Shown here in pieces: positions 2,116 to 3,510 of a stretch of DNA of 64,000 bases. Origin of the DNA: Nitratireductor soli (GTDB taxonomy: Bacteria > Pseudomonadota > Alphaproteobacteria > Rhizobiales > Rhizobiaceae); the NCBI RefSeq assembly GCF_001050155.1, contig NZ_LFVY01000001.1, positions 310,001-374,000 of the forward strand, read 5' to 3'. The translations under genes and the position numbers were made by a program. The notes under the pieces were generated by a model. It was not told where the DNA came from and ran no database searches. It worked only from the letters and a program-made list of their open reading frames with translations. Position 1 is the first letter of the stretch; each line of letters starts with the position of its first letter.

Positions 2116-3510
2116 ATGGCATTCGGATTCATCAAAAAGGTCTTCTCCTTCGGCAGGAAGCAGGTCGAGGAGACTCCGCCGGAAGACGCTGCGGTGGACG
2201 ATGCGGCGGTTGCCGATGACACCGTGCCCGCCATCGACGTTCAACCGCCATTGACGGAAGACAAGCCGGCGGCTGAGACTCTTCCAGAGCCAGAGCCAGA
2301 GCCAGAGCCAGAGCCAGAGCCAGAGGTAGAAAATCAAGACGCGACGCCGGCGTCCCCTTCTCCCCGCGAGCGGGGAGAAGGTGAGGATGAGGGGCGAGCG
2401 CCGTCGCCGGCCGACGAGACGAAGGATGCAGCGCCAGAAGCCGAAAGCGTCGACGCTGGCCCCTCATCCGACCCTTCGGGCCACCTTCTCCCCGCAGACG
2501 GGGAGAAGGAAGAAAGCGTTGCAGCTCCGGCCAAACTCACTGTTGCCAAAAGCGTCGAGCGCAAACAGGACGCTGCGCCTGCGCCCGAGCCGAGGAAGCC
2601 GTGGTTCCAGCGCTTGCGCGAGGGGCTGTCGCGCTCGTCGCGCGAATTGCGCGACAACATTGCCGGCGTTTTCACCAAGCGGAAGCTGGACGAAGACACG
2701 TTGCAGGATCTGGAAGACGTGCTGCTGCGCGCCGATCTCGGCCTGGAGACGGCCATGCGCGTCACCGACGCGCTGGCGTCGGGCCGCTACGGCAAGGACA
2801 TTTCCGGCGACGAAGTGCAGGCGGTGATGGCCGAGGAGATCGAGAAGGTGCTGGCCCCGGTGGCGATGCCGCTCGAGCTCGATCTGTCGCACAAGCCGCA
2901 TGTCATCCTCGTCGTCGGCGTCAACGGCACCGGCAAGACGACGACCATCGGCAAGCTGGCGGCCAAGCTCGTCGAGGGCGGACTGTCGGTGATGCTGGGC
3001 GCGGGCGATACGTTTCGCGCGGCGGCCATCGAGCAGCTCAAGATCTGGGGCGAGCGCACCGGCTCGCCGGTCGTTGCCTCCAAGCTCGGCGCCGACGCGG
3101 CGGGTCTCGCCTTCGATGCCTATGCCCAGGCCAAGGAAGCCGGCTCCGACGTCTTGATCATCGACACGGCCGGCCGCCTGCAGAACAAGACCGAGCTGAT
3201 GGCGGAGCTGGAAAAGATCGTCCGCGTGCTCGGCAAGCACGATCCGGAAGCGCCGCACACGGTGCTGCAGACGGTCGACGCGACGACCGGCCAGAACGCC
3301 CTTAATCAGGTCGAAATCTTCCGCAATGTTGCCGGCGTCAACGGGCTTGTGATGACCAAGCTTGACGGCACGGCGCGCGGCGGCATTCTCGTTTCCATCG
3401 CAGCGAAGCACAAGCTGCCGGTCTATTTCATTGGGGTCGGCGAACAGGTCGACGATCTGGAACCTTTTTCTGCAAGCGATTTCGCCAAGGCGATCGCGGG
3501 AGTGGCATGA
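2116..3510 (+). CDS. ftsY: Signal recognition particle receptor FtsY
   Basis: FtsY is the SRP-receptor GTPase that docks ribosome-SRP complexes at the inner membrane. Of 464 residues, 1-160 form an acidic, proline-rich A region, about 165-250 the N domain and 260-464 the G domain. GTPase motifs are G1 GVNGTGKTT (268-276), DTFRAAA, DTAGR and TKLDG. The A region is odd. It holds a PE dipeptide run encoded by seven CCAGAG hexamers (2284-2325), then two stretches (residues 81-95 and 115-133) that are in-frame translations of palindromic repeats normally found between rhizobial genes. The C-terminal NG core is intact, so the gene should be functional. It overlaps ispZ by 4 bases (ATGA). Confidence 0.97.
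2284..2325 (+). repeat. Seven-copy CCAGAG hexanucleotide repeat in ftsY
   Basis: Seven perfect tandem copies of CCAGAG encode alternating Pro-Glu residues in the FtsY A region. The unit is six bases, so gain or loss of copies changes length by two residues without a frameshift. Length variation between strains is likely by slipped-strand replication, but this is inference. Confidence 0.95.
2355..2400 (-). repeat. Rhizobial palindromic repeat, copy A, inside ftsY
   Basis: The copy contains the stem CTTCTCCCCG/CGGGGAGAAG followed by GTGAGGATGAGGGGCGAG. The reverse strand reads CGCCCCTCATCC, then the stem. It is read in frame as FtsY residues 81-95 ([14 protein letters not shown] type). The same unit recurs at 2459-2512, 29631-29681 and 58829-58950. 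It resembles the RIME/ABC-type mosaic elements described between rhizobial genes; that family name is from memory and not checked. Confidence 0.85.
2459..2512 (+). repeat. Rhizobial palindromic repeat, copy B, inside ftsY
   Basis: This copy lies inverted relative to copy A, about 60 bases downstream. It reads GCCCCTCATCC, a CCCTTCGGG mini-stem, CACCTTCTCCCCG, then CGGGGAGAAGG. It is translated in frame as FtsY residues 115-133. The A/B inverted pair mirrors the inverted pair in the hutH-hutG gap. Confidence 0.85.

Follow-up and report, generated by a model that had tools for sequence, protein, structure and literature searches.

A dispersed palindromic repeat lies in frame within ftsY, glyS and ileS of Nitratireductor

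Palindromic repeats of one dispersed family lie in frame within ftsY of Nitratireductor soli, within glyS of the same genome and within ileS of another genome of the genus, three genes that encode essential proteins. We consider it likely that a repeat of the RIME (Rhizobium-specific intergenic mosaic element) type was inserted into the A region of ftsY and kept there as tolerated, translated hairpin DNA, and that it also entered glyS and ileS. Coordinates given here refer to a 64,000-nucleotide stretch of the N. soli genome, called the window (Table 1). In this work we establish the identity of the repeat, its in-frame position, its presence or absence and multiplicity among relatives, its arrangements in other genera, and a variation of the second ftsY unit that is not codon-like.

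In ftsY of N. soli the right-half unit (U1) precedes the left-half unit (U2). The original prediction of two palindromic repeat units in inverted orientation within the ftsY frame was confirmed: the two 26-nt core palindromes are 88% alike, and the units are mutually inverted, with arms at 2356-2383 and 2482-2509 that are 89% complementary. U1 encodes residues 80-94 and U2 residues 115-132, at most one residue away from the predicted 81-95 and 115-133. Besides its palindrome core, U2 carries a small hairpin, GACCC-TTC-GGGCC. The core spacing is 128 nt, which is no multiple of three, and each of the two units has five open frames out of six. The RNA fold of positions 2340-2525 has an energy of -113.6 kcal/mol (z -6.8), and none of 200 shuffles reached as low a value. 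The longest GAGCCA run in ftsY ranges from 0 to 52 copies across nine genomes of the genus (L033, L034, L068 and L040 being among the loci viewed).

Table 1. Features of the window that bear on the repeat
Feature	Position	Strand	Evidence and remarks
ftsY, SRP receptor	2116-3510	+	ORF, 464 aa; PF02881 (SRP54_N) and PF00448 (SRP54 GTPase)
FtsY A region	residues ~1-160		followed by the NG domain
(GAGCCA)6 array	2287-2322	+	sequence; inside the ftsY A region, codes for EP repeats
U1, right-half type	2351-2396	-	core palindrome 2356-2381; model match E 2.8e-13; 13 residues read in ftsY
U2, left-half type	2458-2514	+	core palindrome 2484-2509; model match 2469-2514, E 2.8e-11; 18 residues in ftsY
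Lone dispersed copy outside ftsY	29629-29672	-	model match E 1.5e-6 (G000:C1:339629-339672)
Full-length dispersed element	58831-58943	.	two palindromes, GCCCCTCAYCC-type termini; model match 58831-58936

The repeat is dispersed in the N. soli genome. With at most one mismatch, the core CCTTCTCCCCG occurs 14 times in the 64-kb window, as compared with 1.82 times (sd 1.37) in 100 shuffles. Taken by itself and with two mismatches allowed, the tail pattern GCCCCTCATCCG does not exceed chance there (15 occurrences, 16.2 expected). A covariance model built from 20 copies of the own genome gave 104 rows at E ≤ 1 in a scan of that genome, and the 59 rows at E ≤ 1e-5 merged into 30 loci, including ftsY and glyS. 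The full element of about 112 bp is bounded by GCCCCTCAYCC and its complement. Its left half forms two hairpins, one small and one large, and a spacer separates this half from the right one, which forms a second large hairpin. Three of the six frames are open over the copy at 58832-58943, and the best plasmid match of this copy lies between annotated genes in N. rhodophyticola. An Rfam scan returned 13 weak matches, every one below its gathering score.

Two copies had been predicted to sit between genes, at 29631 and 58829. Model matches bear out their existence, and their intergenic position is likely rather than proven: no frame over either copy places it centrally within any recognisable gene, and in the frames spanning them the unit lies near one end, or the frame is short or without coding-like codon use on both sides. 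All 30 loci of the genome were screened by codon score, and those accepted as lying in a conserved frame are ftsY and glyS; the other 28 were judged by this screen alone, which is insensitive, ftsY U1 itself having given no coding frame. The score was weakly positive on both sides of the unit at L010. It was likewise so at L014, which was rejected as a coding copy: the permease domain begins at residue 71 and the unit lies at residues 10-17, so that it is probably upstream. At another place (G000:C58:131196, L284) a copy appears to form the very end of an ORF, stop codon and last sense codons included. The starts of contigs C9 and C12 (L002 1-288 and L005 13-300) share a 288-bp stretch, 93% identical, which carries a copy of the repeat and is a larger genomic repeat.

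RIMEs are dispersed elements of about 110 bp with two large palindromes, and we take the full element described here to be of this type. Like them, it is dispersed in rhizobial genomes, with two large palindromes per element of about 110 bp in the 58831-58943 copy and in others. Compared with plasmid sequences, the full element matched 262 records at no fewer than 1538 places, the number being capped in four records. Most of the records are from Rhizobium (132) and Sinorhizobium (83); the S. meliloti 1021 record NC_003078.1 has 19 places. RIMEs are described as intergenic and of unknown function (PMC2573895), whereas the Nitratireductor repeat is partly coding.

We found ftsY in nine of ten Nitratireductor genomes, and eight of these nine genes show one to three units. 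Two units are present in N. soli (G000) and G002, and three in G003, G005 and G008. The third unit is probably a tandem duplicate of the first, since it follows the first by 249 nt in all three genomes and has similar flanks. The identity of the G003 and G005 units was not counted as evidence, because the flanks in their A regions are shared as well, which suggests a recent exchange. In G006, U2 is visible and the place of U1 is taken by a run of N; in G009, whose contig is truncated, a single U1 is seen in degraded form. The draft genome of N. pacificus (G004) has U2 and a unit resembling a fusion of U1 and U2, beyond which the frame differs. Such a fusion is what a deletion between the cores would give, and the change of frame fits this because the 128-nt spacing is not divisible by three; an assembly error is also possible. 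No unit of the family was seen in the visible part of ftsY of G007, whose contig begins inside the EP array, though this genome is repeat-rich; another palindrome-like stretch is present there. Among the matches listed, the model gives 19 to 149 rows in eight other genomes of the genus (G001 not included), which are rough counts, both strands of each palindrome being counted and no more than 150 candidates scored.

Aligned across relatives, ftsY thus varies in the presence and number of units, and relatives free of units lack the encoded residues, so the residues are not common to all of them. Of 96 distinct ftsY genes whose start is visible, 94 remain in one frame from a conserved MAFGF-like beginning onwards. 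Both breaks come from draft genomes: one is that of N. pacificus with its apparent U1/U2 fusion, the other that of M. sophorae (L132), where the start of the A region is out of frame with NG. Such breaks might indicate that translation of the A region in a single piece is not required.

Hairpins are concentrated in the A region beyond Nitratireductor as well. We searched a set of 93 complete, non-identical ftsY genes from close relatives for perfect hairpins with arms of at least 10 and loops of 3-14 nucleotides. The A regions contain 44 in 77,274 nt, in 27 of the 93 genes, and 42 of the 44 carry the core of this repeat; the NG domains contain one in 85,374 nt. Twenty codon shuffles (94 genes) gave 1-5 hairpins each. 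The scan behind 80 of the loci used peptide patterns of the own FtsY, one of them inside U2, so that the sample is biased towards units and 27 of 93 overstates their frequency; the contrast between A region and NG is unaffected by this bias. In 60 lower-ranked genomes of the family, picked by hand from 119 ftsY places and mostly better-ranked among these (start recognised in 54, one stretch incomplete), the A regions total 36,852 nt and hold two hairpins, both of a type other than this repeat's.

The arrangement differs between genera. In 19 of the 27 hairpin-bearing genes, 18 of them named Mesorhizobium and one unnamed, the left half reads PPAGTFSP, and in seven of the 19 a right half behind it also passes the hairpin test. 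The Mesorhizobium order is left half then right half, and the left half is read in another frame than in Nitratireductor; because of these two differences we regard the Mesorhizobium insertion as probably independent. With a Mesorhizobium-type ftsY copy as query, 227 plasmid records matched, none over more than 80% of the query. The right-then-left order is found in two loci labelled outside the genus (L040 and L080) and may predate Nitratireductor; in a tree built from parts of ftsY and glyS the genome of the former (G095) groups among Nitratireductor. Possession of the repeat is not sufficient for units in ftsY, since many plasmid records of Rhizobium and Sinorhizobium contain related elements. 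Among the matches listed for six genomes of other genera, the model gives 109 rows in G023, 8 in G095, 7 in G041, 6 in G060 and none in G128 and G081, and ftsY of G023 has no hairpin. The A region of ftsY in Mesorhizobium sp. L-8-3 contains a second repeat family, represented by the segments TPSGPSGHLPLKGGE and SPLRGGSIGEADRGGV, with 69 further matching pieces in that genome, often two per element; the architecture of the TPSGPSGHLPLKGGE segment is like that of the present repeat and its sequence is different.

A search for other coding copies yielded glyS in the own genome and ileS in the genus. In glyS of N. soli a full element lies in frame and encodes peptides of 18 and 16 residues in the same frames as in ftsY, together with extra codons beyond the repeat. 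The insert is located between the synthetase domain (residues 3-500) and the anticodon-binding domain (583-679) of a 692-aa piece (PF02092 and PF05746), and when aligned with the solved GlyS chain 7yse_C it falls in a gap between aligned stretches, at chain residues 557 and 563. A structure model of GlyS was poor (mean pLDDT 42, 7 sequences). Among nine genomes the site is filled in G000 and G003 and empty in seven. On the tree of ftsY and glyS pieces the two filled species are not sisters, so vertical descent alone is insufficient; two separate hits on the site, movement of alleles or repeated loss would each account for the pattern. A second stretch of glyS, between IRxxIEN and LLSFFHD, varies greatly in length among species, with no repeat recognised in it (L218-L226, L268, L269).

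In ileS of G007 a unit encodes 18 residues after MDKDLG, and the contig ends within it. Among ten genomes this site holds the unit in G007, another insert in G008 and G009, and is empty in seven. The other insert (L294 in G008, L291 in G009), about 37 aa long, is 93% identical between its two hosts, which are not sisters; it matched no plasmid record, and its status as a dispersed repeat is unsupported. Neither a clean target duplication nor an exact empty-site junction was seen at the filled and empty sites compared. For the remaining genomes of the genus the choice fell chiefly on sites whose frames stay open over a long stretch, and 146 units in loci L188-L269 were screened, repeated loci being counted repeatedly. 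The loci L199/L230, L237, L241, L248, L249 and L252 had codon scores above 0.05 on both sides and no Pfam match, and were not counted as coding.

From the way in which the frame is kept we infer that the units are translated in FtsY. The original prediction went further and proposed that such elements build protein domains, which our data do not support. In an AlphaFold2 model of FtsY (31-sequence alignment, mean pLDDT 61.7, pTM 0.53) NG is folded and the whole A region, including both units, is predicted to be a low-confidence coil; residues 70-80, 82-94 and 97-154 have a pLDDT below 50 and no predicted secondary structure, and the segment encoded by the units is thus not predicted to fold. 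Furthermore, U2 varies mostly at non-silent positions, in the way that tolerated hairpin DNA would. In seven genomes its nine variable columns are distributed over codon positions 1, 2 and 3 as 3/4/2, as compared with 17/9/179 for the 205 variable columns of NG (Fisher P = 3e-5, columns treated as independent).

It has to be considered whether the units are kept for use, translation supplying a needed length of acidic linker and selection on the peptide holding frame and sequence. More than one kind of repeat has ended in the same A region, the frames used are the hydrophilic ones, and the peptide is conserved while its flanks drift, all of which would suit this explanation. Yet the silent sites of U2 are more conserved than those of NG (12% vs 60% of codons are variable at position 3), its changes falling on non-silent sites instead, and many relatives do without any unit, so that we hold selection on the peptide to be improbable.

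Slightly more doubtful still is a role of the hairpins themselves in ftsY mRNA or DNA (translation pausing, stability or recombination), coding being incidental. The very stable fold fits such a role, as does the conservation of the large stem together with a paired change in the small one. This sole paired stem change, from GGCCC/GGGCC to GGTCC/GGACC, was found among 13 coding and dispersed rows, four of which have the pair; by the genetic code it turns Gly into Asp on one side, and the GGTCC form is also present outside ftsY in G007. However, dispersed copies have the same stems, homogenisation or a recent common origin explains their conservation equally well, and the number and position of units vary. 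The coding GACCC form, moreover, breaks one pair of the small stem, leaving the neighbouring pair open in five of the 13 rows, all of them coding copies. Because its changes are mainly non-silent and include one paired stem change, U2 varies like dispersed DNA and unlike a codon-constrained protein, whether a recent origin in common, homogenisation or a constraint on the stems is the cause.

That the upstream frame is an untranslated leader, FtsY starting downstream of the units, is very improbable: the breaks of frame that precede NG in two drafts would allow it, but 94 of 96 distinct genes hold the frame from the MAFGF-like start through A regions of very unequal length, and the glyS and ileS copies sit inside synthetase frames.

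We return to insertion of a tolerated, translated repeat as the favoured explanation. A RIME-type palindrome would have entered the A region of ftsY in or before the Nitratireductor ancestor, leaving a right-half and then a left-half unit, which would afterwards have been duplicated, degraded and partly deleted; the same repeat would have entered glyS and ileS. The repeat would thus be a mobile, or once-mobile, palindrome inserted in frame into a flexible tether and two synthetases, where its hairpin-forming DNA, translated and tolerated, would lengthen linkers and add no folded domain. Each unit is open in five of six frames, its coding inserts respect the reading frame, and the tether that the A region forms is predicted to be disordered; these are the probable reasons why the units have been kept, presumably at near neutrality.

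The left half with its TTC-loop hairpin was also searched as a pattern (at most three mismatches), which gave 18 sites in the ten genomes and none with the reversed control. Nine are in genes, all in one frame (six in ftsY, two in glyS, one in ileS); the others lie at the 5' end of an ORF (two), at the 3' end of an ORF (one) or have no gene assigned (six, among them L285, with weakly coding-like scores on both sides and a 55-aa frame). The ORF at G002:C6:107159 and G005:C2:639520 is presumably PaaD. By form, nine sites are GACCC, four GGTCC (three ftsY copies and L285) and five GGCCC. Six GACCC sites are inside ftsY, glyS or ileS, two at an ORF 5' end and one at an ORF 3' end, and none of the five GGCCC sites is placed in a gene, nor does any frame running across them score as coding-like both before and after the unit. 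Orthologous sites being non-independent, this GACCC bias is a lead and not a test. It is conceivable, though we rate it as unlikely, that a coding-adapted GACCC-TTC-GGGCC lineage, as opposed to GGCCC, passes from gene to gene in one frame as a mobile peptide-coding cassette with FtsY as its long-term reservoir.

The best-known precedent is that of the Rickettsia palindromic elements (RPEs), nearly half of the 44 in R. conorii being in frame within ORFs and giving a conserved peptide (PMC10969869). The present repeat resembles them in lying in frame inside conserved genes that have empty orthologues (seven of nine for glyS, seven of ten for ileS, and the unit-free ftsY relatives), a likeness of arrangement. 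Unlike the obligate intracellular hosts of RPEs, its hosts are free-living, GC-rich rhizobia, most copies are apparently non-coding, and several units with duplications occur in one disordered region. The predicted rhizobial equivalent of RPEs is therefore upheld as regards in-frame position at filled sites with empty counterparts, and not as regards the building of domains.

In-frame palindromes outside Rickettsia were already reported in 2013, so the principle is not new. PMC3733652 describes intragenic GTAG/CGTC REPs within ORFs of several further species, single, paired or grouped, which encode 20-82 aa and are possibly neutral in flexible linkers or loops. That paper stresses replication and repair genes and ties the REPs to RAYTs, whereas a RAYT-type transposase (Y1_Tnp, PF01797) was found at E ≤ 0.001 in none of our ten genomes and in five of 14 control genomes, so that the mobilising enzyme may have been lost. 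Its passages on intragenic REPs do not name FtsY, and words in 'rhizob' occur twice in the paper. Among the titles and abstract beginnings found in the open-access literature, none reports RIME-type repeats inside FtsY.

Our results extend in-frame palindrome insertion, best known from Rickettsia, to free-living rhizobia, and point to the FtsY A tether as one region entered by different repeat families in different genera. If the coding-adapted lineage were real, a mobile peptide cassette would be operating in free-living bacteria. Within one genus, two tRNA synthetases exist as natural filled and empty alleles, so that a long-standing question, namely if insertions of this kind are neutral passengers, selfish DNA or of use to the cell, becomes testable by allele exchange in harmless soil and marine bacteria.
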